This document shows, one piece after another, positions 48,908 to 64,000 of a DNA stretch of 64,000 nucleotides; positions within the stretch are counted from its first letter, which is position 1, and every line of letters begins with the position of its first letter. Under the pieces are notes generated by a model. It was given only the letters and a program-made list of their open reading frames with translations. It was not told the origin of the DNA and made no database searches. Source of the DNA: Aequorivita viscosa (lineage in GTDB: Bacteria; Bacteroidota; Bacteroidia; Flavobacteriales; Flavobacteriaceae). A program made the position numbers and the translations under genes. The stretch is from assembly GCF_900106795.1 (NCBI RefSeq), contig NZ_FNNS01000007.1:1-64000 (forward strand). Reading direction: 5' to 3'.

Positions 48908-50548
<1,641 letters not shown>

Positions 50549-50559
50549 CTATACGGGGT

Positions 50560-50567
50560 GCAAAGGT
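50560..50567 (-). promoter_or_regulatory. -7 promoter box of pyrG
   Basis: The minus strand reads TACCTTTG, a TAnnTTTG match, about 32 bases before the ATG. A C-rich stretch (ACCCC) directly downstream falls near the predicted transcript start; initiation-site slippage at C runs regulates pyrG in Firmicutes, but here that is only a thought. Confidence 0.55.
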
Positions 50568-50612
50568 ACATTTTATTGTGGAAGGGAAAGGATGAAAATT
50601 TAAAAATAAGAC

Positions 50613-50711
50613 CCCGAAACAAAAAATTAAGTTTCGGGCGTTATGAAATCCTTTTATAGCTCACTAACAGAACCTTATACTTTGTAATATCGCTATCAAA
50701 TTTAGCGATAT
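50613..50711. repeat. two perfect hairpins between pyrG and DUF2207 gene
   Basis: CCCGAAAC/GTTTCGGG (50613-50620 with 50631-50638) and ATATCGCTA/TAGCGATAT (50687-50695 with 50703-50711). Neither has a good T run, though the first is followed by a T-rich stretch on the minus strand. They may help end the LemA-DUF2207 transcript. Confidence 0.5.
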
Positions 50712-50796
50712 AGCTCTAAATTTATTTTTTTGAAAAGATAAGATTATCCACTAAAAAATTCTGAGGCAAAAACAATAATATTTCTACTTGAGAACA

Positions 50797-52482
50797 CTAC
50801 CAACTTCCGCCGCCACCGCCGCCAAATCCACCTCCGGAGGATCCGCCACCCGAAGAGCTGCTCGAAGGCGAACTAACCATTACAGACTGAGCCGACGTCA
50901 TGGCTCCTGAAAATGAATTTGCGAAATTGTGCATTGTAAACGCACCCGTAGAGGAAGTGTACCAACTAGGTGGTTGCAAGTTGAGCGATTCAAACTTCTT
51001 TGCCCATTGGTCGAATAAACCAAAAGCAACGGCATAAGCCATGGTTGTTTCAAAATAATTAGGACTATCTTGTAGTAGCATCTTCAACTTATTTTGTTCA
51101 GCGACTTTTATAAATTGTTTAAAACCTTTTAAATCTGAAAGCACTCGGTTCCCGATAGCGTTTTTCTTAACCAAATAAGTGGTCATAATCATCAAGAAAA
51201 TAGTTACTGGAACCACAGCAATAGCCGCTATCAATCCCCAAGTAAATAGAAACACAAAAAACAACAAAACGTTCCCGAGTAAAAAGCCTATAGTCACATA
51301 ATTCTTAACCTTTCGCGCTTTTGGGTCGTAATAAACCTGTGCCTTGTCCTTTAGTTTTTCTTTGGCACTACTCATGGTTGTATAGAATGAATCCTTTAGG
51401 CTACTGATAAGCACCTCGACTCCCGGAACATCTTCAGTTCCAAAAAGCCCTCTAAAAATCTGCTCTTCATAATCTGGGGAATCTGCAGGTAGCGTTTTAA
51501 GCATAGTTAGTTTGGTATCATCTTTTCCAAACCATCCGTTTTTAGGAATTTGCTCCATTTTAATAATTCCCCTTGAACCCCAACAAGGAATTAACGCTAT
51601 TAAATCTGGAGTATCTGCTCGGTCATCAATTAAAAAACCAGCCATGGCAGGATCTATCCCACTTGGTGGAAAATAACTGATTGTTGCTACCACATCATCG
51701 TCCTTACCATACTTATCCCAAATTCTATAAAATACAATCAAAATTGTTGCGAGAATAAGCGTCCAACCATAATTTGTCCAAAATGGCCAAAATGGTTTAA
51801 TTTCCTTTATAGCACCCTGCGGAAGATTTAATAAAACTGTAACGCTATCTCCTTTATACGAAGTGAAACCGTCAAGGCTACCCACTGTAAAAACGCCATT
51901 ACCGTAACTTATTTGAAACTCATCACTTTCTTCCGATTCACCAACAGCTCCTGAATAAACGAAAAAATCATCGTCACTTACACTCACCTTTTCGGGTACA
52001 TGAATTGTAAAGTTTAATTGTTTAAAAACGGTATTCCAGTCGGCAGGTTTTACATTCCAATAAAACAGAACCTGATCTTTTTCAAAAAGAAAAGCACCAT
52101 ACACCCTATATCTTATTTCATAATGCTGAGGGCCAATAAGCGTAATATCCTTATCCCCTATTTTAATTTCCAAATAATCACTGAGTTTTTGAATAAAGTC
52201 TGGGTCGGCTTCAAAATTATAGTTCGGAACTTCGACATTTCTTATTTTAATACGTCGATTCTCCTCAATTCCGTCTTCGTTTATTAAATCGTAGGAAGTC
52301 TGAATATTTCTATAAATTCCATGTTTATAATCAGTAAAAGTAAGGTCGTATTTCTCTACGACATCAAAATAACCATCGGCATTTATAAAGATATCAACCT
52401 GGGCGCTATCCACTTCGAAATCTTGGGTAAATCCTTTCAGAATACCCAACAACATTAATAGAAGAAGAATCAGGTTTTTCAT
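50797..52482 (-). CDS. DUF2207 membrane protein
   Basis: A 561-residue exported/inner-membrane protein. It has a signal peptide, an N-terminal beta domain (DUF2207, residues about 20-230), a membrane helix (GWTLILATILIVFYRIW), two more helices near residues 395-440, and an extreme Ser/Gly C-terminus of about 20 residues ending in Trp. It pairs with the LemA gene 24 bases upstream, a combination seen widely in bacteria. The function is unknown. Confidence 0.85.
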   Translation of the reverse strand: MKNLILLLLMLLGILKGFTQDFEVDSAQVDIFINADGYFDVVEKYDLTFTDYKHGIYRNIQTSYDLINEDGIEENRRIKIRNVEVPNYNFEADPDFIQKLSDYLEIKIGDKDITLIGPQHYEIRYRVYGAFLFEKDQVLFYWNVKPADWNTVFKQLNFTIHVPEKVSVSDDDFFVYSGAVGESEESDEFQISYGNGVFTVGSLDGFTSYKGDSVTVLLNLPQGAIKEIKPFWPFWTNYGWTLILATILIVFYRIWDKYGKDDDVVATISYFPPSGIDPAMAGFLIDDRADTPDLIALIPCWGSRGIIKMEQIPKNGWFGKDDTKLTMLKTLPADSPDYEEQIFRGLFGTEDVPGVEVLISSLKDSFYTTMSSAKEKLKDKAQVYYDPKARKVKNYVTIGFLLGNVLLFFVFLFTWGLIAAIAVVPVTIFLMIMTTYLVKKNAIGNRVLSDLKGFKQFIKVAEQNKLKMLLQDSPNYFETTMAYAVAFGLFDQWAKKFESLNLQPPSWYTSSTGAFTMHNFANSFSGAMTSAQSVMVSSPSSSSSGGGSSGGGFGGGGGGSW

Positions 52483-52506
52483 TTCAAATAATTCAATCGA
52501 AATTTG

Positions 52507-53064
52507 TTAATCAAAACTCACCTTTACATTTTCACGACTCGCCTCATCGGTTTCAAAAAAGTCGAAATGCTGATATTTAAACATACTAGCGAACACAACA
52601 CCTGGAAAGCTTTCGCCATAGGTATTATTTTCGCGAACGGTTCCGTTGTAATAGCGCCGACTACGCTCTAGGTTAATTTCAATTTCATTAAGCTTTTGTT
52701 GAAGATCCAAAAAGTTGGAATTAGCCTTTAAATCTGGATAAGCTTCACTCAATGCAAAAATACTGCGTAGCGTTTGTTGCAATTGGTTTTCGGCTTTTAT
52801 TTGCGCATTAATATCATCGCTAGGAACAGCCATTGCAGCATTTCGAGCATTAATAACACTTTCCAAAGTAGTTTTTTCGTGAGCGGCATACCCTTTTACG
52901 GTTTCCACAAGATTTGGAATCAGGTCGTATCTGCGTTTCAGCGCAACGTCAATATTACTCCAGGCATCCTTTACGAGATTTCGATTTTTAGCAAAACGGT
53001 TGAAAATGTTTACAAGAAAAAAGCCCAATGCTAAAACAATTGCGAGGAAAATCAGTAAATACAT
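52507..53064 (-). CDS. LemA family protein
   Basis: A 185-residue protein with one N-terminal membrane helix (YLLIFLAIVLALGFFLVNIF) and the LemA three-helix bundle: NLVKDAWSNIDVALKRRYDLIPNL and EINLERSRRYYNG. It probably exposes the bundle outside the cytoplasm. It is the first gene of a two-gene operon with DUF2207. Confidence 0.92.
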   Translation of the reverse strand: MYLLIFLAIVLALGFFLVNIFNRFAKNRNLVKDAWSNIDVALKRRYDLIPNLVETVKGYAAHEKTTLESVINARNAAMAVPSDDINAQIKAENQLQQTLRSIFALSEAYPDLKANSNFLDLQQKLNEIEINLERSRRYYNGTVRENNTYGESFPGVVFASMFKYQHFDFFETDEASRENVKVSFD

Positions 53065-53426
53065 AGCTTCAAAAATTAAGGGTTAGTAGTTTTTGGATTA
53101 TATAAAATTACCCAATAAATAACGAACTAAGGTAGTGATTTTTATTGTTTTTGAATTGATGTTTTTGAAGATGAATTAGAAGTACTTTATACTATAAAAA
53201 GACGTTAAGAAAAAACGGGGTTTAAAATAATATTTTCAATTATCGACTTAAAATTATAAAGCAAATTGAAGTATAAAGTGCATTGATAATTAACAGAAAA
53301 ACGTGGAAACACACTATCAAATTATCGGAATCTGAGTTTTTAAGCTTGTAAAAAAGCATTGAAAACACAGAATATCAACCAAAAATAGAACTAAAAAACT
53401 TTGAGTATTAAAAAAATGAAGAATAG
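53065..53426. other. AT-rich gap
   Basis: A 362-base, very AT-rich stretch with no open frame of coding character and no clear hairpin or terminator. It must hold the LemA promoter, but no exact TAnnTTTG is seen close to that start. Confidence 0.4.
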
Positions 53427-54812
53427 CTACACCCTTTTCTTTAAAAGATAGAGTATGCGTTTTGTGCCTTTTACTACTTCCTTTTTCTCGAGGGTGAAGT
53501 ACTGCAAATAGCCGTTCTCAAATTCCGTTTCATTGTAGAAATCGAAGTGATTGATAAACTCCCGCTTCCGAAGTAATAATGAACCCACCCAAGAATCCTC
53601 ACGGGTAGGGAACTCTATGATGAGCGTTTCGGAAAATGAAGCGAAAAACTCAGCCGATTTATCAAAAGGAACATTGCCTGAAAGTGTAATGTGGTGAATC
53701 AACGCCAAAGCCATAGTAACGTCTGGTTGATAATTTACCAATCTTTCGATTAAAGAATTCCGCTCCGTGTTGTTAAAACCAACTCCAGGTGCGGGTTGCA
53801 GCACATCACAAACAAAGGGCAACATATTTGTTTCCTTGTTTTTCTGAAGTTGTTTGTAGTTGTGATCCACGGCATTGCTGTCAATATCGGTAACAATAAT
53901 CTCCGGTACGCTGTCAATCACAGTGCGAGCAAATGTGCCGTCGTTACCACCAACATCAATTAATTTCTGCGGTTTCAGAGGTTTAATCCACTCTTTAACC
54001 AGCTTTTTTTTAGCTTCAAAAGCAGCTTCGTCATAATTGGTTTTGGTGTAGTAATCACCCCATTCGCTAACTTCCTTTAGTTTTAACTCTTTTATGAAAT
54101 CGAAAAGACTCTCCAAAATATTTTCTTGTGATTTTTTCGAAAGTGAAGCAATTTTGGTTTCGACCTTGTAATCCTCACCATGCTTACTTTCCATCTTTGC
54201 AAGCAAGTGTATGTTTGGATAGAGTACCGAACTTAATTTGGTACGTGTAGGAAGTAATGATGAAATAAGTTTTACAGGAATTCCATCTATATGCGTCTGC
54301 ATCATCTTAAAAACTTCGGTGCCGTGATATTTCGCTAAAGCTAATGGCCCTAAAAAGTGGGTGACAAACTGTTTGTATGCACGCCAAGGGGTGCCTTCTT
54401 CGTAAAAATCGAAAGACAGTGTGTCGATAAATACAGGTTTTCCTTTGTGAAATGTAATATTGTAGGCAGAAGCATCTTTCAATATAAACCCTTTAGAAAG
54501 GGCATATTTCTGAATTTTTAAAGTGTGTAAAGCAGCATGTTTATATTGTTCAAAACTCCATTCGTACGGGTTTGTGATAAACGGAATTGGTTCTGGAGTA
54601 ATTACAATTTGCTCAGCCGAAACAGAAGTCTCCTCGTGCGGAATTAGAAGTGCGTTGGATATTAAATTTTTGAAAAAACCAGACTCCTTTAATTTTTTGT
54701 ATTGTGGAAAATAAATAGGGTTAATAGCCCTACGAAGCACATCACCATCGTGAAACACATACCCAGAAGGATCTCGAAATGAAGCTTGGTGTGTATTAGT
54801 TTTTTCTATCAT
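53427..54812 (-). CDS. SAM-dependent methyltransferase (NoeA-like)
   Basis: A 461-residue protein with a class I methyltransferase core in the second half: LIDVGGNDGTFARTVI (SAM loop), EIIVTDIDSNAV and VTMALALIHHITLSGNVPF. The first half has SFRDPSGYVFHDGDVLRRAI and a kinase-like LKDASAYNITFHKGKPVFID. The build matches nodulation NoeA-like methyltransferases. Starts at 54842, 54833 and 54812 are possible; I prefer 54812, which limits overlap with the upstream small gene to 17 bases. Substrate unknown; surface glycans are a guess. Confidence 0.75.
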   Translation of the reverse strand: MIEKTNTHQASFRDPSGYVFHDGDVLRRAINPIYFPQYKKLKESGFFKNLISNALLIPHEETSVSAEQIVITPEPIPFITNPYEWSFEQYKHAALHTLKIQKYALSKGFILKDASAYNITFHKGKPVFIDTLSFDFYEEGTPWRAYKQFVTHFLGPLALAKYHGTEVFKMMQTHIDGIPVKLISSLLPTRTKLSSVLYPNIHLLAKMESKHGEDYKVETKIASLSKKSQENILESLFDFIKELKLKEVSEWGDYYTKTNYDEAAFEAKKKLVKEWIKPLKPQKLIDVGGNDGTFARTVIDSVPEIIVTDIDSNAVDHNYKQLQKNKETNMLPFVCDVLQPAPGVGFNNTERNSLIERLVNYQPDVTMALALIHHITLSGNVPFDKSAEFFASFSETLIIEFPTREDSWVGSLLLRKREFINHFDFYNETEFENGYLQYFTLEKKEVVKGTKRILYLLKKRV

Positions 54813-54999
54813 CTTTTTCGGTGTCTTGCTCATCAAAATCAATTGAATCGTAAGTATCTTCCTCTTCTTTTACCAATCCGAAAAAAGATTTCACCTTATA
54901 CATCACCCCTTTTGAAAAAAGCAATATTCCAGCCGCAGCTGCCACTATTGCTTGAACCAACATTGCTCCTAATCCTGGATCGAAATAAAGAAAATTCAT
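54796..54999 (-). CDS. small DPG-motif membrane protein
   Basis: A 67-residue protein starting MNFLYFDPGLGAMLVQAIVA, one hydrophobic helix to about residue 28, a basic stretch, then an acidic tail rich in Asp and Glu. The start resembles short membrane proteins with a DPG-x-G motif that occur beside surface polysaccharide genes. Its 3' end overlaps the methyltransferase gene, implying joint expression. Confidence 0.65.
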   Translation of the reverse strand: MNFLYFDPGLGAMLVQAIVAAAAGILLFSKGVMYKVKSFFGLVKEEEDTYDSIDFDEQDTEKDDRKN

Positions 55000-55161
55000 A
55001 TCTATTATTTTAATACGCGTTTACCTATCGGCGGTGGCAAATTAACTAAAAAACGTCGAGTTTAAAGGACAGAATGATGAAAATGTTTTAAATGACAAAG
55101 GATGTAAGACTAAGAAAATACTTCCTAGTCCTACGTCTTAAGTCAAAAAGCCTTATGTCAA

Positions 55162-56955
55162 TTATAACTTGTTTCGCTTACGGTCAACTTCTTTTAAATA
55201 TATTTTACGAATGCGTAAATGGTTTGGTGTAACCTCAACATATTCGTCCTTTTGGATATACTCTAATGCTTCTTCCAAAGAAAATTTAATAGCAGGGATA
55301 ATTTTAGCTTTATCATCTGCGCCCGAAGAACGTACGTTAGAAAGCTTCTTGGTCTTAGTGATATTTACAGTCATATCATCTTGTCGCGAGTTTTCTCCAA
55401 TTACTTGACCTTCGTAAATATCTTCGTTTGGATGCACGAAGAAACGTCCACGATCCTGCAGTTTATCAATAGAGTAAGGAATTGCTGTTCCCGTTTCCAT
55501 AGAAACTAAAGATCCGTTTTGTCTTTCTGGAATTCCACCTTTTAATGGTTGATACTCAAGAAAACGGTGTGTCATAATAGCTTCCCCTGCAGTAGCAGTA
55601 AGCAATTGATTACGCAAACCAATTATACCACGCGATGGGATTATAAATTTACAAACCATACGGTCTCCTTTACCTTCCATGCTTATCATTTCGCCTTTAC
55701 GAATGGTAACCATATTAATGGCAGTTCCACTAACGGTTTCAGGCAGATCGATAGTCATTTCTTCAACTGGCTCACATTTTACACCATCAACTTCCTTGAT
55801 AATTACCTGTGGTTGACCAATTTGAAGCTCGTAACCTTCACGGCGCATAGTTTCAATTAAAACAGAAAGGTGCAAAACGCCACGGCCAAAAACCATAAAC
55901 TTATCAGCACTATCTGTTGGATGCATGCGCAAGGCAAGATTTTTCTCTAATTCCTTTTCAAGCCTTTCCTTAATATGTCGCGATGTAACAAATTTTCCAT
56001 CTTTACCGAAGAAAGGAGAATCGTTAATCGTGAAAAGCATACTCATTGTAGGCTCATCAATAGAAATAGTTTGTAGCGCTTCTGGGTTTTCAAGATCGGC
56101 AATGGTATCGCCAATTTCAAAGCCTTCAAGTCCTACTAATGCACAAATATCACCCGGTTGAACTTCCGTAACTTTTTTACGGCCCATTCCTTCAAAGGTG
56201 TGAATTTCTTTTATTTTAGTTTTTACAATAGTCCCATCTCTTTTAACAAGGGCTACTTGCAAGCCTTCCTTCAGGACTCCTCTTTGCAAACGACCAATAG
56301 CGATTCTTCCTGTAAAAGATGAAAAGTCTAATGAGGTAATTAGCATTTGTAATGATCCTTCTTCAACTTTAAAAGACGGAATATGTTCTAAAACCATATC
56401 TAATAATGGTTCAATACTATCGGTTGGTTTTCTCCAATCGGTGCTCATCCAGTTCTGTTTTGCAGAACCATAAACCGCTGGGAAATCGAGTTGCCATTCT
56501 TCGGCACCCAATTCAAACATTAAATCAAAAATAGATTCGTGTACCTCATCTGGAGTACAGTTTTCCTTATCGACTTTATTAACAACTACACAAGGTTTTA
56601 AACCTAGATCTATTGCTTTTTGAAGCACGAAACGCGTTTGTGGCATTGGCCCTTCAAAGGCATCAACCAATAGCAAAACGCCATCGGCCATGTTTAATAC
56701 CCGTTCAACTTCACCACCAAAATCGGCGTGACCAGGAGTATCGATAATGTTAATTTTTGTTCCTTTATATTGTACAGAAACATTCTTGGAAGTAATAGTA
56801 ATTCCGCGCTCTCGTTCTAGATCGTTATTATCTAAGATAAGTTCACCAGACTGTTCGTTTTCACGAAAAAGACTACAGTGGTGCATAATTTTATCTACCA
56901 AGGTGGTTTTACCGTGGTCGACGTGGGCAATAATTGCGATATTTTTGATTTTCAT
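55162..56955 (-). CDS. typA: translational GTPase TypA/BipA
   Basis: A 597-residue ribosome-associated GTPase important for ribosome assembly and growth under stress or cold. G1 is [11 protein letters not shown]3 [15 protein letters not shown]4 NKVDKE. EF-G-like domains II, III and V follow, with the BipA-specific C-terminal region ending in [14 protein letters not shown]. The start is the ATG at 56955; an upstream in-frame start at 57024 lies ahead of the promoter. The leader is an unusual hairpin that contains a strong Shine-Dalgarno site. Confidence 0.96.
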
Positions 56956-56960
56956 AAATT

Positions 56961-56979
56961 CCCTCCTTTTTTTGGAGGG
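56961..56979 (-). promoter_or_regulatory. typA leader hairpin hiding a Shine-Dalgarno site
   Basis: On the minus strand CCCTCC, A7 and GGAGGG form a perfect six-base GC stem. GGAGGG ends five bases before the typA ATG and is a near-perfect Shine-Dalgarno sequence. The -7 box is only three bases upstream of the left arm, so the transcript probably starts in or next to CCCTCC and the leader is essentially this hairpin. Confidence 0.7.
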
Positions 56980-56981
56980 TG

Positions 56982-56989
56982 CAAAAGTA
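56982..56989 (-). promoter_or_regulatory. -7 promoter box of typA
   Basis: The minus strand reads TACTTTTG, a TAnnTTTG match, 26 bases before the ATG at 56955. Confidence 0.6.
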
Positions 56990-57132
56990 GTGTTTCTAAG
57001 TGGATTAGAAACAAAAGTCGTCATTTTTATTTTGAATAAAATTTGAAATTTTTTATACGTTACTATCTAGAAAAACTGGAAGTTAAAATAGAATGGTAAA
57101 ATAACTATCTTTACGCTGCCTAAAAATAAATT

Positions 57133-57951
57133 ATGAAACTTGAATTAATTCCGAAAATAAAACACACGAACTCTAACAACTTTTTCCTTTTAGCAGGACC
57201 ATGCGCTATTGAAGGCGAAGAAATGGCGATGCAGATAGCCGAAAAGATTGTAAAAATCACTGATAAGCTTGAAATACCTTTTGTTTTTAAAGGAAGTTTC
57301 AAAAAAGCAAATCGAAGTAGAATCGATAGCTTTACAGGGATTGGAGACGAAAAAGCATTGAAAATCCTCCGAAAGGTCTCTGAGTCCTTTGACGTTCCCA
57401 CTGTTACTGATATTCATGAAGTAAACGACGCATTATTAGCCGCCGAATATGTAGATGTGCTACAAATACCAGCTTTCTTGGTTCGCCAAACCGATTTAGT
57501 AGTTGCCGCCGCCAAAACAGGAAAAGTGGTAAACTTGAAAAAAGGACAGTTCATGAGTCCAGAAAGCATGAAACACGCAGTAACCAAAGTAACCGATTGC
57601 AACAACGAACAAGTGTTGGTAACAGATCGCGGTACTATGTTTGGATATCAAGACATGATTGTAGATTTTAGGGGTATTCCAACCATGAAACAATATGCAC
57701 CTGTTGTATTAGACGTAACCCACAGTCTGCAACAGCCTAACCAAAGCGCTGGTGTAACGGGAGGAAGACCCGAAATGATTTCAACTATTGCAAGAGCTGG
57801 AATAGCCACTGGTGCCGATGGCATTTTTATTGAAACTCACTTCGACCCTGCAAATGCCAAAAGTGACGGCGCAAACATGCTTAATTTAAATTTACTTGAA
57901 AAGTTATTGACAGACCTTGTGGCTATTCGACAAACAATTAATGGTCTATAA
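57133..57951 (+). CDS. kdsA: 3-deoxy-8-phosphooctulonate synthase
   Basis: A 272-residue enzyme condensing phosphoenolpyruvate and arabinose 5-phosphate into KDO 8-phosphate for lipopolysaccharide core synthesis. It shows FLLAGPCAIEGEE, KGSFKKANRSR, PAFLVRQTDLV, NLKKGQFMSPE and DVTHSLQQPN. Near-consensus promoter TATCTTTA lies at 57106. Its end abuts the terminator of the first small RNA unit on the other strand, and that stem may also stop kdsA. Confidence 0.96.
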   Translation: MKLELIPKIKHTNSNNFFLLAGPCAIEGEEMAMQIAEKIVKITDKLEIPFVFKGSFKKANRSRIDSFTGIGDEKALKILRKVSESFDVPTVTDIHEVNDALLAAEYVDVLQIPAFLVRQTDLVVAAAKTGKVVNLKKGQFMSPESMKHAVTKVTDCNNEQVLVTDRGTMFGYQDMIVDFRGIPTMKQYAPVVLDVTHSLQQPNQSAGVTGGRPEMISTIARAGIATGADGIFIETHFDPANAKSDGANMLNLNLLEKLLTDLVAIRQTINGL

Positions 57952-58070
57952 AAAAATCCTGCTCATTCTTTGAAGAAGCAGGATTTCTTGGCTAACTAAA
58001 ACTCTTAAAAGTGAATGAATTTAGAGGATTATAATAAATTTATTTTTTTATTAGAACCTCAAATTATGAG
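57950..58070 (-). ncRNA. predicted small RNA, unit 1
   Basis: A transcript of about 120 nt is predicted, starting 6-8 bases after the -7 box at 58076-58083. The 5' part contains ATTTGAGGTTCTAATAA. The end is a terminator with AAATCCTGCT/AGCAGGATTT stem and T7 on the minus strand (57950-57986). No open reading frame of note lies inside. It is the longest and most divergent of the four units. Confidence 0.5.
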
Positions 58071-58075
58071 TAACT

Positions 58076-58144
58076 CAAAGATGCATCTAAAAGCCTATAC
58101 AAATCAAGAGGAAAAACCCTGATTTCCTTCAGGATTTCTCCTGT
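58076..58144 (-). promoter_or_regulatory. promoter and conserved upstream element, unit 1
   Basis: Minus strand: an element with ACAGGAGAAATCCT and CAGGGTTTTTCCTCTTGA (58144-58104), then 20 bases to CATCTTTG (58083-58076). TTGA serves as -33 and CATCTTTG as -7. The element's two halves are partly inverted copies (AGG-A/T-CCT), as expected for a dimeric regulator site. Confidence 0.55.
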
Positions 58145-58183
58145 TTATTATTGTAAATCAACACACTACATATCATATTTTAA

Positions 58184-58260
58184 ACAAAAGGGCTGCTTAA
58201 AATTTTAAGCAGCCCTTTCGTAAATAATACTTGATTATTAACCCCCCAGTCAATCTTCAG
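58184..58260 (-). ncRNA. predicted small RNA, unit 2
   Basis: A transcript of about 75 nt. The 5' part contains TTGACTGGGGGGTTAATAAT. The terminator is a 32-base perfect palindrome (58187-58218) with arms AAAGGGCTGCTTAAAA and TTTTAAGCAGCCCTTT, followed by TGTTT. No reading frame is seen. Confidence 0.55.
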
Positions 58261-58265
58261 TAACA

Positions 58266-58333
58266 CAAAGATGCAGTATACAAACACACCAATCAAGGGG
58301 AAAAAACCTATTTATTTAAGGGATTTTTCCTGT
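58266..58333 (-). promoter_or_regulatory. promoter and conserved upstream element, unit 2
   Basis: Minus strand: ACAGGAAAAATCCC and ATAGGTTTTTTCCCCTTGA (58333-58293), then 19 bases to CATCTTTG (58273-58266). Same layout as the other three units. Confidence 0.55.
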
Positions 58334-58434
58334 TATTCGCAAACATAAAAGGAGAAATGAACCAAAGTATTATAAGATTCTGATTAGGTGAAATTAATAG
58401 GCTTAAAATTAACTACAAACAATCGATATTTTAA

Positions 58435-58448
58435 TAGGTAATTACCTA
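58435..58448. repeat. TAGGTAATTACCTA palindrome
   Basis: A perfect 14-base palindrome between units 2 and 3. It could be a regulator site; no partner gene is clear. Confidence 0.3.
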
Positions 58449-58517
58449 ATGAAGTTTTTATATTTTGAATTATTTAGTGCCCGTTTCTAAACGCTCGGTA
58501 TTTTAGGTCGTATAGAA

Positions 58518-58588
58518 TAAAAAAGCTGCGCCAGAACGGCACAGCTTTTTCAAAAATAAAACAAATAAAAACCCCCAATTAATTTGCT
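58518..58588 (-). ncRNA. predicted small RNA, unit 3
   Basis: A transcript of about 70 nt whose 5' part contains AATTAATTGGGGGTTTTTA. The terminator (58519-58550) pairs AAAAAGCTGTGCC with GGCGCAGCTTTTT with one mismatch, and the minus strand continues in T6. No reading frame is seen. Confidence 0.55.
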
Positions 58589-58593
58589 TGGTG

Positions 58594-58662
58594 TAAAGAT
58601 GCCAAAAACAACAGATGCCCGTCAAGAGGAAAAAACCTATTTCACCACAGGGTTTTCCCTAT
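58594..58662 (-). promoter_or_regulatory. promoter and conserved upstream element, unit 3
   Basis: Minus strand: ATAGGGAAAACCCT and ATAGGTTTTTTCCTCTTGA (58662-58622), then 20 bases to CATCTTTA (58601-58594). AGGGAAAACCCT is a perfect arm pair around AAAA/TTTT. Confidence 0.55.
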
Positions 58663-58792
58663 TTTTATAGCAATGCATTAAGTTTAGATTACTTTTCATT
58701 CTATTATGCTAAGTCTTTACAAATCCTACTGCCAATTATTTAACCTTTGAAGAAAAGCATTCAAATAGACAACTTCGGTTATTAAAATTTCT

Positions 58793-58870
58793 AAACGAAG
58801 AAGGCCGCCCATATGTTAGGCAACCTTTTCGCAAAAAACTCTCTCTTATTAACCCCTCAGTTAATTAAAG
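58793..58870 (-). ncRNA. predicted small RNA, unit 4
   Basis: A transcript of about 75 nt. The 5' part contains TTAACTGAGGGGTTAATAAG, close to unit 2. The closing hairpin (58801-58827) pairs AAGGTTGCC with GGCGGCCTT using two G-U pairs, but its T run is weak. It is the first unit met when reading the minus strand. Confidence 0.5.
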
Positions 58871-58875
58871 CGATA

Positions 58876-58942
58876 CAAATATCTCGCTAATTAAAGCTTT
58901 AAACAAGAGGGTTTTCCCTATTTTATAAAGGGTTTTCCCTGT
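58876..58942 (-). promoter_or_regulatory. promoter and conserved upstream element, unit 4
   Basis: Minus strand: ACAGGGAAAACCCT and ATAGGGAAAACCCTCTTG (58942-58904), then about 20 bases to GATATTTG (58883-58876). Here both halves are the AGGGAAAACCCT form. Confidence 0.5.
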
Positions 58943-59057
58943 TTGCTAAATATTCTTAAATCCAAATAAAACTTTTTAGCAATAATACTCGTTCGTGCTT
59001 TTTGAATCTTTAATATTTATCCTAATTTGCATCTTTATAAGATTTCCGTTCCTCAAT

Positions 59058-61028
59058 ATGTTTGTAAAGAAATTTAATCTACTTGCCTTACTATTACTTT
59101 GCTCCTTTGCCTATTCTCAGTCCATGCGGATTGATGCGTTTGGAAAACCTAGCCAGCATGAATTGAAACTTAAAAGGTATGACCCAGAACCAGACGCTAG
59201 CGGAGTAATACTTTATGAAGCAGGAAACTATTATGCCGTTTCGATTGTTAGGCGAAATGCAGTAAGACTGGTGAAGGAAATACACAGAAAAATTAAAGTT
59301 TTGGATGCCAATAAATTTGATCTTACAACGATAGAAATCCCCTATTACGAGGGAACTTTTTACGGTGAAGAAATCTTGGACTACAAAGCTGTTACGCATA
59401 ACGGTTCCTTGAAAAGTTACGTTCCCGACGATGCTTTCTACAAAACCAACCAATCAAAAACAGGAAAAGCGTTAAAATTTACGTTCCCAAATATACAGGA
59501 CGGAAGTGTTTTGGAATATAGATACACTATTGTAAGCCCTTATTTTTACGACTTGAATGGTTGGGAATTTCAGCACGAACTTCCTACAATTTATAGTCTA
59601 TTTCAAACTAGTCTACCTAGAAACTTCAGATATAACCAGATTTTATATGGTGATAAAAAATTAGACCTTCAAACCTCTACGATTAAACCAAAGGGCTTTT
59701 TAATTCCTTCAAACAATGCGCACGTAGATACTGAAGTGAGTAGTTTCGCAATGAAAGACATTCCTTCTTTCACAGAAGAAGATTATATGCTATCCAGAAA
59801 AAATTATATTTCACGGATTGTGTACGAACCCTTAGCATTTAAAGCTTTTCACGGATTTGACCAAGTTTACACCCGCTCTTGGAAAGATGTTGATAGGCGG
59901 TTTGAAAAACGAAGTGATTTTGGTGAACAGCTAAGTATGAAAAATTATTTTAGAAGAAAGTTGCCAAAAAACATTCTTAACATTGAAAACGACTTAGAAC
60001 GTGCCAAGGCCGTATACAGTTTTATTCAAAGTAACTACACTTGGAATAGGCGATATTTCAATTACGGTTTAGACGTTAAAGACGCTTTTAAAGATAAAAT
60101 AGGTAGTGTATCAGCGATTAACCTCTCTTTGGTCAATGCACTTGAGGCAGCAAAACTAAACGCGAAATCCGTGATTCTTTCAACTAGAAACAACGGGTTG
60201 CCTACAGAGCTATATCCAGTTCTTTCAAATTTCAATTATGTTATTGCCGTTCTAATACTAAACAATGATAAGATTCTTCTAGATGCCACCGACAAGCAAG
60301 CTCCATTCGGAATAATCCCGTTTCGAGCTTTAAACGTAAAAGCACGCGTACTGGACTTCAAAAAAGGAAGTTACTGGATGCCAATAGAACCTTTTAAGCA
60401 AAACATTCATTATTCAAATACTCAAGTAACCGCCAATGCTAACGGAATTTTTTCAGGAAAAGTTAGGCAGGCCAATTATGGTTACATAGGTCTCGGAAAA
60501 CGAAATATTATAGAAGAAGAAACACTTTCAGAATATATAAAGCATCAAGAAAAACACAAAAAAGGAATCGAAGTTGAAGACTACCAAGTAGAGGATATTA
60601 AGCAAATTGAAAAGCCATTAAAAGAGAATTACAACATTACCATAACACCCGAGGTGGTAGGTGACAAAGTGATTCTTTATCCTTTTTTCAACAAGCCCTA
60701 TATTTCGGAAAACCCCTTTAAAATGAAGGAAAGAAGCTACCCAATGGATTTCGGGTTTCCGTTTACAAACACCTATTTAGTTTCCATTGACCTAGCAGAT
60801 GCATACGAAATAGAACAAATACCGAATAGCCGAAGCATTAAGCTCCAAGGCGAAGACGGAGAATGCTCGGTGTATTATGCAATCGAAGACAATAAAATCA
60901 ACATCCGTTTTAACCTAAAACTTAACGCTTACAACTACCCAGCAGACGCTTACGAATCTTTAAAAGAATTTTTTGGCACAATGGTTAGCATGCTAAAAGA
61001 AGAAACAATCGTTTTAAAAAGAATATAA
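59058..61028 (+). CDS. exported DUF3857/transglutaminase-like protein 1
   Basis: A 656-residue exported protein, signal peptide MFVKKFNLLALLLLCSFAYS. I use the ATG at 59058; the GTG at 58995 is likely upstream of the promoter. Residues about 50-230 are DUF3857 (PYYEGTFYGEEI, SVLEYRYTIVSPYF). A transglutaminase-like fold follows (about 310-460). The usual Cys position reads GSVSAINLSL and the His position FNYVI, while the Asp in LLDATDK remains, so catalysis is unlikely. The next gene is a paralogue. A GCATCTTTA box at 59029-59037 resembles the small-RNA promoters. Confidence 0.8.
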   Translation: MFVKKFNLLALLLLCSFAYSQSMRIDAFGKPSQHELKLKRYDPEPDASGVILYEAGNYYAVSIVRRNAVRLVKEIHRKIKVLDANKFDLTTIEIPYYEGTFYGEEILDYKAVTHNGSLKSYVPDDAFYKTNQSKTGKALKFTFPNIQDGSVLEYRYTIVSPYFYDLNGWEFQHELPTIYSLFQTSLPRNFRYNQILYGDKKLDLQTSTIKPKGFLIPSNNAHVDTEVSSFAMKDIPSFTEEDYMLSRKNYISRIVYEPLAFKAFHGFDQVYTRSWKDVDRRFEKRSDFGEQLSMKNYFRRKLPKNILNIENDLERAKAVYSFIQSNYTWNRRYFNYGLDVKDAFKDKIGSVSAINLSLVNALEAAKLNAKSVILSTRNNGLPTELYPVLSNFNYVIAVLILNNDKILLDATDKQAPFGIIPFRALNVKARVLDFKKGSYWMPIEPFKQNIHYSNTQVTANANGIFSGKVRQANYGYIGLGKRNIIEEETLSEYIKHQEKHKKGIEVEDYQVEDIKQIEKPLKENYNITITPEVVGDKVILYPFFNKPYISENPFKMKERSYPMDFGFPFTNTYLVSIDLADAYEIEQIPNSRSIKLQGEDGECSVYYAIEDNKINIRFNLKLNAYNYPADAYESLKEFFGTMVSMLKEETIVLKRI

Positions 61029-61029
61029 T

Positions 61030-62997
61030 ATGCATATCAAAATCTTTCTCATAATTGCTTTCATTTTCTTATTTCAAAATATGAACGCTCAAGAAACGTA
61101 TATTCACACATTTGGAGAACCGCTTCAGGAAGAATATGCACTCAATAAGTACACCCCAGATCTTGAAGCTAGTGGAGTTGTTCTTTATGAAAGAGGAAAT
61201 TATACAATAGATGCAGTTGGAGATTATATTAGAATTATTAAGCATGTTCATGTAAAAATGAAAGTGTTCAACGCCAAAGACTTTAAACACGCTACCATTA
61301 AAATCCCTTATTATCTTGGAGACAAGTTGCAGGAAAACGTAACAAACATTAAAGCCATTACTCACAACGGAAAAACCAAAGAGTTTGTATCCCAAAATGC
61401 GGTTTTTGACGCAGAAGAAAGTCAATATTGGTCCCAGAAAAAATTTGCATTTCCGAATGTTCGGGATGGGAGTATTTTAGAATATTCGTATCAAATAGAA
61501 AGTCCATATTTCGCAATGTTTGGCGGCTGGGAATTTATGAACCCTCTCCCAACTATATATTCTGAACTTCACACAGAAATCCCGGGAAACTTCAACTATA
61601 ACCGCACACTTTATGGCAATCGGGAACTTGATGTAAATAAAGCCGAAATCAAAAAAGATTGCTTTCACCTTCCTGGCTTTCGAGTGCCTGGCGACTGTGA
61701 ATCGGCTACTTATGTAATGAAGAACGTACCCGCTTTTACTGAAGAAAAATATATGCTCGCACCAAGTAATTATATGCCTGCCTTAAAATATGAATTGGTC
61801 GAAATCATCGACTTAAACGAAAGCAGGGACACCTATGCCAAGACCTGGAAAGATGTAGACCGAAGGTTTAAAAACGACAAAGATCTTGGACGTCAACTCA
61901 AGTACTCCGAGTTTTTTAAAGGAAAATTACCTCAAGACATTCTTACCATTTCTGATGACATAGAACGCGCAACTGCCGTTTATCACTTTATTCAGAAAAA
62001 CATGAATTGGAACAAAAAAGTTAGAATATTTAGTGATATTCGGGTAAAAGAAGCCTTTGAAGAAGGAGTTGGTAATAGTTCAGAAATAAATTTAGCACTC
62101 ATCAATTCCCTTGAAGCCGCCGGCCTAGACGCAAAAATAATGATGATAGCAACTCGCGATGTAGCGCTGCCATCAAAACAATACCCTATTTTAACCGATT
62201 TTAATTATGCCATCGTGTTCTTACAAATAAATAATCAAAAATTTATCTTAGACGCTACCGACAAATACACCCCGTTTGGAGTATTGCCAATGCGCGATCT
62301 AAATGTGGAAGGTCGGGTTTTAGATTTCAAAAAAGGAAGTTATTGGGAACCGATCACTCCAATTGCTAAAAACTTACACTATGTAAATATGCAACTGACA
62401 GCCGATAGTCAAGGAATTTTTAAAGGTAAAATAAATGAAGTCTCTACGGGTTATATTTCCGTAGGCAAACGAAAAGAGAATAATGATTATAGTAAGGAAG
62501 AAAACACCAAAAGAAAGCAACAGAAAAACGAAGGATTAAATATCTCAGACTTAACAATTGAAAATGCTAAAGACCTGGAACTTCCGTATAAAGAAAGTTA
62601 TAACATTTCACTACACGAACAAGTAGTTGCCGACCAACTTTTTGTTTATCCGTTTTTAATGCAAACTTATTTTACTGAAAACCCATTCTTAAAAGAAAGT
62701 CGTAAATATCCGATTGACTTTGGATTTCCTGTAATTAATAATTACCTAATTTCGATAGATGTAAAAGACCAGTACGAAATTTTAAGTGCACCCGAAAACA
62801 AACTGATGCGATTACCGAATAACGATGGAGAACTTTCTGTTGTTTATGACGTATCAGGAACTAAAATAAACATTAGACTTAGCCTAAAACTCAATAATCA
62901 CAGCTTCCCCACAGGTGCCTACCAATCGTTACGTGAGTTTTTTACTGAATTAATCAAAATACAATCCGAAGAACCCATTACCCTAAAGAAGATTTAA
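61030..62997 (+). CDS. exported DUF3857/transglutaminase-like protein 2
   Basis: A 655-residue paralogue of the preceding gene, starting two bases after its stop. The signal peptide is MHIKIFLIIAFIFLFQNMNAQ. It has the same order of segments: DUF3857 (PYYLGDKLQENVT, DGSILEYSYQIESPYF), transglutaminase-like fold and C-terminal beta domain (YPIDFGFPVINNYLISID). The catalytic Cys and His are again replaced (GNSSEINLAL, FNYAIV). The tight spacing indicates tandem duplication and joint expression. Confidence 0.8.
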   Translation: MHIKIFLIIAFIFLFQNMNAQETYIHTFGEPLQEEYALNKYTPDLEASGVVLYERGNYTIDAVGDYIRIIKHVHVKMKVFNAKDFKHATIKIPYYLGDKLQENVTNIKAITHNGKTKEFVSQNAVFDAEESQYWSQKKFAFPNVRDGSILEYSYQIESPYFAMFGGWEFMNPLPTIYSELHTEIPGNFNYNRTLYGNRELDVNKAEIKKDCFHLPGFRVPGDCESATYVMKNVPAFTEEKYMLAPSNYMPALKYELVEIIDLNESRDTYAKTWKDVDRRFKNDKDLGRQLKYSEFFKGKLPQDILTISDDIERATAVYHFIQKNMNWNKKVRIFSDIRVKEAFEEGVGNSSEINLALINSLEAAGLDAKIMMIATRDVALPSKQYPILTDFNYAIVFLQINNQKFILDATDKYTPFGVLPMRDLNVEGRVLDFKKGSYWEPITPIAKNLHYVNMQLTADSQGIFKGKINEVSTGYISVGKRKENNDYSKEENTKRKQQKNEGLNISDLTIENAKDLELPYKESYNISLHEQVVADQLFVYPFLMQTYFTENPFLKESRKYPIDFGFPVINNYLISIDVKDQYEILSAPENKLMRLPNNDGELSVVYDVSGTKINIRLSLKLNNHSFPTGAYQSLREFFTELIKIQSEEPITLKKI

Positions 62998-63076
62998 AAC
63001 TAAAAAGGAATTTGGTTATTACCTGAAGCCTATAAGCTATTTCCAGTTAACAACCACTGAATACAGAAAACTGATT

Positions 63077-63706
63077 CTATCCTTTGAACTTTAATGGCAA
63101 ATGAACCACACTTTTGGTTTCATAAAAATCTTCTTCAAAATATTCATTTAACGGATATATAACCGCATTGCGATAAATTTTCAATTCTTCAGTTAAATCG
63201 CCTCCCTTTAAATAGAGAATTCCGTTTTTCTTTTCGTGAAGACTCTTTTTAGCCACTTTTCCATTCACCCAATGTACAAAAGTCTCCATTTGAGCAACGG
63301 CGCGACTAACGATAAAATCGTATTTTCCTGAAACGTTTTCAACCCGATCATTAGTAGCTTTTACGTTTTTTAGCTGTAAACCTTCAACAACCTCCGCCAC
63401 TACTTTAATTTTCTTCCCAATACTGTCTACCAAATGAAACTGCACTTCTGGATAAAGAATAGCAAGAGGGATTCCTGGAAAACCACCACCCGTACCAACG
63501 TCCAATATTTTGGAGCCTGGAAGGAAAGACTGAATCTTTGCTATGCCTAAGGAATGCAGGACATGCCGAAGATACAGCTCATCGATATCCTTTCGAGATA
63601 CTACATTTATTTTAATGTTCCAATCTTCATATAACTTTTGTAACAGCTCAAATTGCGCCTTCTGTTCAGCAGTTAATTCGGGGAAATATTTTAATATCAG
63701 TTCCAT
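63077..63706 (-). CDS. rsmG: 16S rRNA (guanine527-N7)-methyltransferase
   Basis: A 209-residue SAM-dependent methyltransferase acting on G527 of 16S rRNA; loss gives low-level streptomycin resistance. SAM motif ILDVGTGGGFPGIPLAI and VSRAVAQMETFVHW are typical. The start is the ATG at 63706; the in-frame codon at 63745 lies ahead of a near-consensus -7 box (TACTTTCG on the minus strand, 63730-63723). Confidence 0.95.
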   Translation of the reverse strand: MELILKYFPELTAEQKAQFELLQKLYEDWNIKINVVSRKDIDELYLRHVLHSLGIAKIQSFLPGSKILDVGTGGGFPGIPLAILYPEVQFHLVDSIGKKIKVVAEVVEGLQLKNVKATNDRVENVSGKYDFIVSRAVAQMETFVHWVNGKVAKKSLHEKKNGILYLKGGDLTEELKIYRNAVIYPLNEYFEEDFYETKSVVHLPLKFKG

Positions 63707-63733
63707 AATATAATTTAAGAGACGAAAGTATGG

Positions 63734-63741
63734 TATCTTTG
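63734..63741 (+). promoter_or_regulatory. -7 promoter box, probably for the desaturase gene
   Basis: TATCTTTG matches TAnnTTTG on the plus strand. It lies about 90 bases before the desaturase start and overlaps the divergent rsmG promoter region. The leader contains a ten-codon frame (63793-63825, MTATESNLRQ). Confidence 0.5.
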
Positions 63742-63831
63742 TCAAAATTATAGATTTGGATTCTAAGATTTCACCAAAAGTTGATTAATTTTATGACCGC
63801 TACAGAATCAAACCTAAGACAATAAATTATT

Positions 63832-64000
63832 TTGACATATACCAAATTAAACTTCTCCAGAACGGACAGCGCAAAGTTCTTTAGAACACTCAACAAGCGC
63901 GTTAACGAGTACTTTAAAGAAAACAATTTATCCAAAACTGGAAATTGGAAGCTTCACCTTAAAACCATCGTGATGTTTTCATTATACCTTACCCCCTATT
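63832..64000 (+). CDS. fatty acid desaturase, 5' end only
   Basis: The first 56 codons of a rightward gene cut by the window edge. The protein starts (M)TYTKLNFSRTDSAKFF and continues RTLNKRVNEYFKENNLSKTG and NWKLHLKTIVMFSLYLTPY. This is the N-terminus typical of flavobacterial membrane fatty acid desaturases, just before the first membrane helix; the His boxes lie beyond the window. The start appears to be TTG at 63832, since a stop at 63823 lies upstream in frame and no ATG is available. Confidence 0.65.
   Translation, partial: MTYTKLNFSRTDSAKFFRTLNKRVNEYFKENNLSKTGNWKLHLKTIVMFSLYLTPY

Follow-up and report, generated by a model that had tools for sequence, protein, structure and literature searches.

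Four predicted small RNA units beside kdsA

The element described here is a tandem array of small RNA (sRNA) genes in Aequorivita viscosa, a marine member of the Flavobacteriaceae. It lies in a 64,000-nucleotide stretch of contig NZ_FNNS01000007.1 (assembly GCF_900106795.1, positions 1 to 64,000), which we call the window. The array runs along the minus strand from 58945 to 57950, flanked by the convergent kdsA gene (57133-57951, a match to the Pfam family DAHP_synth_1) and by an outward-facing open reading frame that begins at 58995. Reading of the sequence together with its inverted repeats established that the array is real: it comprises four promoter–sRNA–terminator units, which we call D, C, B and A in the order of reading. 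The layout is the same in each: tandem dyads are followed by TTGA or TTGT, then some 19 bases on by a box resembling TAnnTTTG, and after it come a G-rich core and a hairpin of terminator type. An earlier note, made from the sequence of the window, had placed four minus-strand units at spacings of about 190, 330 and 280 bases, and the start-to-start distances we measured (187, 329 and 282) agree with it. The same note had each unit's shared element ending in TTGA; this is so for C, B and A, and in D the dyads are followed by TTGT instead.

Our main search tool was R1, a covariance model of promoter plus hairpin with 61 training units, the four window units among them. (Sixty-one of the 65 units we collected were aligned, the omissions being one near-duplicate and three units with long leaders.) R1 matches D at 58835-58938, C at 58553-58658, B at 58224-58329 and A at 58037-58140, with E-values from 4.6e-12 to 6.8e-10, and in the whole 3.54-Mb genome it finds nothing beyond these four, either at E ≤ 0.001 with stricter filters or at E ≤ 1e-4.

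In unit D the dyads have the form AGGGAAAACCCT-N9-AGGGAAAACCCT, followed by CTTGT (58903-58945). The -7 box, GATATTTG, is at 58876-58883, the predicted start is near 58871, the predicted 5′ hairpin AUUAACU-GAGG-GGUUAAU spans 58848-58865 and the terminator hairpin 58801-58827. Unit C has its dyads and CTTGA at 58622-58666, the box CATCTTTA at 58594-58601, a predicted start near 58589 and a terminator hairpin at 58520-58550 (inverted repeat I7). Dyads and CTTGA of unit B occupy 58293-58337, the box CATCTTTG is at 58266-58273 with a predicted start near 58261, the 5′ hairpin AUUGACU-GGGG-GGUUAAU lies at 58237-58254 and the terminator hairpin at 58176-58229 (I1). For unit A the corresponding positions are 58104-58148 for the dyads and CTTGA, 58076-58083 for the box, again CATCTTTG, near 58071 for the predicted start, and 57951-57989 for the terminator hairpin (I4). 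Predicted starts were set five bases after the -7 box, whose position was counted by hand.

The -7 boxes had been described as alike. They are present in every unit and come in the three forms just given. According to the available part of PMC9723704, the Bacteroidota sigma-A consensus is TAnnTTTG, with the box at -12 to -5. Compared by eye, A, B and D agree with it at five of the six specified bases and C at four, and as far as sequence goes the array's -7 boxes are those of Bacteroidota sigma-A promoters. The pattern of dyads, TTG and -7 box occurs at three places in the window (D, C and B); 60 dinucleotide-shuffled versions gave a mean of 0.13 and a maximum of 1. Dyad pairs alone are not rare under a loose pattern (13 in the window against a shuffled mean of 7.9 and maximum of 17), and a count of sigma-70 promoters (7 against 4.4) was uninformative. 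In A, B and C the terminator-type hairpin is visible both as an inverted repeat and in the fold, while a consensus terminator scan reported only that of D, plus three matches inside dyads. Fold z-scores for the predicted RNAs are -5.4 (D), -3.4 (C), -7.0 (B) and -3.8 (A).

Two observations concern the surroundings. The terminator of unit A abuts the stop codon of kdsA and may terminate transcription both ways. On the other side, 58995-62997 on the plus strand holds two neighbouring, similar-looking large open reading frames of 677 and 655 amino acids, the first of which has no Pfam match at 0.001.

A family of predicted hairpin RNAs in the Flavobacteriaceae

The typical product is predicted to be about 69 nucleotides long and to consist of a 5′ hairpin, AUUAAUU-GGGG-AGUUAAU, plus the terminator. 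Sixty-three of 66 units give a terminated predicted RNA (median 69 nucleotides; the three without a detected terminator were excluded from folding), in which the GGGG loop is mostly unpaired and the stem has a median probability of 0.98. When the 61 aligned hairpins are laid over a 10-pair stem, 80.8% of the 610 pair cells hold standard pairs; slid versions of the same alignment reach 53.4% at most. Thirty-three cells have changed on both sides, and none of 500 shuffles did better on paired cells, both-side cells or covariation.

Within the window the fold is less uniform. Units B and D form the canonical hairpin, whereas in C it is lost and GGGGG (58572-58576) sits in a wide predicted loop, and in A, a degenerate copy, GAGG (58057-58060) is buried by pairing within a longer stem. 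This loss or hiding of the hairpin suggests that A and C may be in decay or have become specialised. The run of up to six G noted earlier is there, as GAGG (A), GGGGGG (B), GGGGG (C) and GAGGGG (D), and so is a G-rich core in the 5′ part; the proposal that this core acts as a seed needs refining, the G-run being the loop of a predicted hairpin and not open.

The family extends well beyond A. viscosa. A DNA search found matches in 21 of 39 relatives, and a scan of named records gave 30 stretches, 16 of them from Aequorivita and the rest from Ulvibacter, Planktosalinus, Cochleicola, Marixanthomonas and other Flavobacteriaceae. At E ≤ 1e-4, R1 matches 26 of the 28 genus genomes, including all 25 that are at least 90% complete; the two without a match (G003 and G007; G and L numbers are our own handles) are 89% and 69% complete. 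In the family at large it finds 44 of 397 genomes at E ≤ 1e-3, of which 21, in 11 genera, reach E ≤ 2e-8. The core could be seen by eye in eight weak-match genomes (G050, G280, G235, G270, G422, G193, G373 and G126), which brings the total to 16 genera. In all of these except G126 it lies well downstream of the dyad promoter, within a longer RNA, and seven loci (L139, L140, L141, L177, L178, L179 and L181) are such longer variants, with the GGGGAGUU core tens of bases further from the promoter. Several of the remaining weak matches fall on dyad promoters that serve protein genes rather than sRNAs. In the five relatives we read at length (G001, G004, G018, G021 and G015), the array is near kdsA.

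The earlier note had suggested Rfam, including the Flavo-1 motif, as a check on identity. In Rfam 15 (E-value mode) nothing reached a gathering score in window positions 50000-64000; the two matches fell far under it, the better with an E-value of 0.79. The sRNA loci of six relatives returned only transfer-messenger RNA. With no Rfam family to match it, this is apparently a new sRNA family.

A two-component system as candidate regulator

Paired AGGGAAAACCCT dyads, 21-23 bp apart, also stand upstream of a two-component operon that encodes a protein of about 116 residues, a membrane protein, a HisKA_3 kinase and a response regulator with REC and GerE domains (NarL/LuxR type). The earlier note had proposed that the element would lead to a regulator gene nearby; it leads to a candidate operon, with a dyad pair in the genome's own copy (L065), that is on another contig. 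We read 21 of 22 orthologous operons, the last (in G013) running off its contig, and a script detected the dyad pair in 17 of the 21, one of which, L071, has an imperfect pair; it detected none in two paralogous operons. With a cut-off (E ≤ 2e-88) chosen once the scores were known, a high-scoring homologue of the regulator turns up in 20 of the 21 genomes that match the sRNA strongly; of the remaining 376 genomes, 24 have one.

In the four genomes in which the regulator was not found, the sRNA dyads are damaged. G014 and G023 have no orthologue of it; their cores and proximal dyads are perfect, and the distal dyad is ruined in all four of their units. (An idea that these two genomes were without sRNAs proved wrong, as R1 finds units in both.) By comparison, of 35 units from regulator-bearing genus genomes, 32 have the two dyads intact. 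G126 has no regulator match and has lost both dyads, and in G395, also without a match though 97% complete, the proximal dyad is degenerate; the unit of G395 falls outside our dyad-scoring pattern and was judged by eye. By counting, the centres of the dyads fall near -42 (proximal) and -64 (distal), a usual placing for an activator. Taken together, the shared dyads, the co-occurrence and the coupled decay support the earlier suggestion that one dimeric regulator governs the units, and the response regulator of the two-component operon is likely to be that regulator.

In relatives, dyads also precede some protein genes. At nine loci (L213, L215, L216, L219-L221, L225, L226 and L228), dyads with TTGAC stand before a gene pair encoding a protein of about 162 residues and a helix-turn-helix-looking protein of about 115-120, which by its recurrence in several species would form a second, protein-coding part of the regulon. 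None of this pair's products that were scanned scored above the Pfam cut-off, nor did six of seven other proteins at dyad promoters; the seventh (L214) has a type IX secretion sorting tail. Pfam likewise gave no family for the 116-residue operon protein or the adjoining membrane protein, and the AlphaFold model of the former was unusable (mean predicted local distance difference test score 45.6). In Flavobacteriaceae, relatives of this protein are often encoded some 2 kb upstream of paralogous NarL-type regulators, and it is perhaps a general companion of NarL-type systems. Upstream of the operon in L071, L073 and L075, near the dyads, there is a TGTAAG-N6/7-CTTAC-like palindrome, which we take to resemble a GacA/UvrY box. 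Four further loci (L135, L136, L137 and L190) carry divergent dyad-driven RNAs with GGGGA- or GGGAG-type runs, read away from the two-component operon and about 2 kb from the regulator gene.

The comM leader and a proposed control of transformation

What might such RNAs do? We scanned three genomes (G004, G011 and G001) for AACTCCCC up to 25 nucleotides before an ATG. The scan gave 59 matches, several of them inside sRNA genes, against 31 for a reversed-pattern control, and the leader that recurred across all three genomes was that of comM (ChlI domain). In that leader a CUCCC box, 17–31 nucleotides upstream of the comM start codon, is the complement of the core GGGGAGUU. We then compared 50 genomes counted as sRNA-positive (all 28 of the genus and 22 from 15 other genera) with 31 genomes without an R1 match. 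CTCCC occurs within 60 nucleotides of the comM start in 43 of the 50 and in one of the 31, and that one genome, G110, carries the regulator and the 116-residue protein. Leaving out the three discovery genomes gives 40 of 47, the genomes outside the genus alone give 18 of 22, and a count by genus gives 13 of 16 against one of 31 (Fisher tests, which ignore phylogeny, return 2e-14 by genome and 5e-8 by genus). The longer AACTCCC is found in 28 of 50 comM leaders against none of 31. No comparable difference is seen for mirror motifs (GGGAG in 0 of 50 and 1 of 31, CCCTC in 5 and 1, GAGGG in 2 and 1).

Within the genus, comM leaders are often alike. Outside it the rest of the leader diverges around the box: among 14 of the 18 leaders in other genera that carry it, the 12-nucleotide flanks are only 0.41 and 0.37 identical. 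The median predicted sRNA–comM duplex energy is -15.5 kcal/mol, which none of 100 shuffled seeds reaches, against -6.7, and of the RNAs in the window it is B that pairs best with the genome's own comM leader (-22.1 kcal/mol). For cores anchored on an exact GGGGAGTT, composition is a circular measure of the 3′ strand, and we set it aside as evidence. A kissing-loop model, suggested by a UCCCC loop that many Aequorivita comM leaders show in a 5′ hairpin, was dropped as a general mechanism because leaders outside the genus, read by eye, keep the box without that hairpin.

A second leader points the same way. CTCCCC lies 25-26 nucleotides before the start of dprA (PF02481) in three of three genomes (G011, G001 and G016), against a background of two in 200 sampled leaders of G001 and three in 193 of G016, dprA being one in each. 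The target prediction with the G-rich core that the earlier note had suggested leads to the leaders of comM and dprA, where a box complementary to the core is conserved. The same motif precedes a PolB-type exonuclease gene in G001 and G011 and, in both, stands directly before the start of a saccharopine-dehydrogenase-like gene, so named from its sequence alone. Other AACTCCCC leaders appeared in one genome each, before genes read as thioesterase, thioredoxin-like, M28 peptidase, GIY-YIG and acetyltransferase; the last was rejected as a target, its box being missing in G001. In the available parts of the sources, insertions in a YifB-type ATPase of Riemerella lowered transformation and insertions in dprA abolished it (PMC8459023), and ComM is named as the canonical Gram-negative counterpart of RadA (PMC11612176).

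On the strength of the units, their conservation, the operon dyads, the coupled decay and the leader boxes, all of which sequence comparison provides, we give a probability of about 0.6 to a two-component system that drives a multicopy base-pairing sRNA controlling natural-transformation genes. The array would be transcribed as one multicopy trans-acting sRNA family. Its response regulator would probably bind directly to the paired AGG-A/T-CCT dyads near -42 and -64 and so activate each copy together with its own operon. Each RNA would present a GGGG loop on an A/U-rich stem, followed by a short linker and an intrinsic terminator. In the cell, the loop would nucleate pairing and the weak stem would then open, leaving GGGGAGUU free to pair with CUCCC(C) in the 5′ leader of genes for DNA processing, foremost comM and probably also dprA. 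Pairing would alter translation or stability of the target, repression being our guess from the position of the box, and the physiological role, seen as a competence phenotype, would be the control of natural transformation.

Several results weigh against this reading. The 50 sRNA-positive genomes include G003 and G007, which have no R1 match (41 of 48 carry the box without them), and the weak variant G435; shared ancestry among the genomes keeps the counts from being independent; and some units were seeded with patterns that require a G-run, which makes the invariance of the core in R1 and the alignments partly a matter of selection. Stem pairs with a both-side change are unremarkable (215 of 500 shuffles score as high), as are further pair types (28 of 500), and RNAalifold gives no consensus structure for the aligned hairpins, which we attribute to the A/U-rich stem. 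No dyad pair was detected by script at four operons (L066, L067, L075 and L080). Two perfect dyads occur in only 14 of 23 units from regulator-bearing other genera, so the operator must tolerate change, and because the G126 assembly is 82% complete its regulator may merely be unassembled. Presence of regulator, seed and box does not always coincide either: the comM box is missing in G434, G299, G079 and G235, the last three of which have the regulator, as well as in G014, G023 and G126, where the regulator was not found; G395 keeps the box without a regulator match; and in G014 and G023 the seed is retained though comM has no box, a sign that the sRNAs must have other targets. In A. viscosa itself, D (-15.8 kcal/mol), C (-14.0) and A (-7.0) pair less well with comM than does B. 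The evidence on dprA comes from three relatives, the genome's own dprA leader not having been located. Lastly, the recA leader is without the box in G001 and G011, as expected of a housekeeping gene, yet recA also serves transformation.

Among the alternatives, we regard it as possible, if doubtful, that a different factor such as a repressor binds the dyads and that the two-component operon is just another of its targets. The link between dyads and regulator is one of sequence comparison, dyads also precede other protein genes, and the operon has the additional palindrome upstream in three genomes; against this, the dyads are damaged where the regulator is missing, and a proximal dyad at about -42 suits an activator. 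Somewhat less probable, and in our view unlikely, is that the CUCCC box is a promoter or start-site element in the DNA, unrelated to the sRNAs, which would act on other mRNAs. In many comM leaders, as we read them, the box does lie a few bases downstream of a -7-like box and near the likely start, and G014 and G023 do keep sRNAs without it. Such an element would not be expected to be the exact complement of the sRNA core, to track the presence of the sRNA across genera and to be rare among other sampled leaders.

More improbable still is titration, in which the GGGG(A) loops would be decoys for an RNA-binding protein and the array would multiply its sites. The available part of PMC7652899 describes, for Gac/Rsm and BarA-UvrY/CsrB-CsrC, a response regulator that activates redundant sRNAs with G-rich loops, and our NarL-type regulator, several copies and G-rich hairpin loop resemble this, as do the GGGGA- or GGGAG-type runs kept by the divergent copies at the four loci named above. 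The operator, however, differs, and CsrA scored above its family cut-off in none of the 59 genomes searched, A. viscosa included (one sub-threshold match, in G038; the control was found in 3 of 14 named genomes), which disfavours a Csr/Rsm-type decoy. Moreover, base pairing explains the conserved complement in the comM leader, while a protein site would recur in the targets as GGGGA, not CUCCC. To an inert mobile repeat, chance palindromes or short peptide genes we give next to no credence. The tandem copies are indeed alike in sequence, but the earlier note's picture of an inert repeat, an element scattered through the genome with no promoter or terminator beside it, is not what we found: R1 finds only four copies in the genome, each with both, the array keeps its place near kdsA in the five relatives read, and changes in the outer stem preserve pairing. 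Nor was any conserved short reading frame noticed while we read the aligned units, by eye and unscored.

The closest known parallel to the proposed pairing is in Legionella pneumophila. In the parts of PMC7973641 and PMC9674577 available, RocR is an sRNA with several targets that controls competence through a box shared by the leaders of DNA-uptake genes. RocR differs in using a ProQ-type chaperone, RocC, and represses its targets, and our array differs in being multicopy, with a 5′ GGGG hairpin and dyad-controlled promoters. The likeness drawn here is one of proposed function, and the array may be regarded as a candidate functional analogue that would work as RocR does. FopS of Bacteroides is, like ours, a multicopy Bacteroidota sRNA family with a shared seed and terminator; as far as the accessible text of PMC11697453 goes, its 5′ seed is single-stranded and represses SusC-type transporters, whereas the 5′ part is a hairpin in most of our 63 predicted RNAs (we compared the fold of the seeds, not their sequence). 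Rfp18 of Flavobacterium psychrophilum, in the part of PMC9723704 available, is a conserved flavobacterial sRNA with strong structure that is predicted to pair with protease mRNAs through its third stem-loop; the comparison made here is with that description.

To our knowledge, the control of DNA uptake in Bacteroidota, and the sRNAs involved in it, are poorly known. The available text of PMC8383284 states that the determinants in Riemerella remain unknown, and the open-licence full-text matches listed in our search held no description of a system such as this one. Tentatively, and at a little under even odds, we propose a post-transcriptional control of transformation in Flavobacteriaceae, in which GGGG-loop sRNAs fired by a two-component system would co-regulate comM, dprA and the exonuclease through the CUCCC box. 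The analysis names a candidate for the regulator and two putative target leaders, defines the sRNA family and gives the seed exactly. If the proposal is true, the array would have converged on the kind of control that RocR exerts in Legionella, would possibly rank with the earliest competence regulators to be recognised in Bacteroidota, and would be a new kind of gene-uptake switch in this bacterial group.

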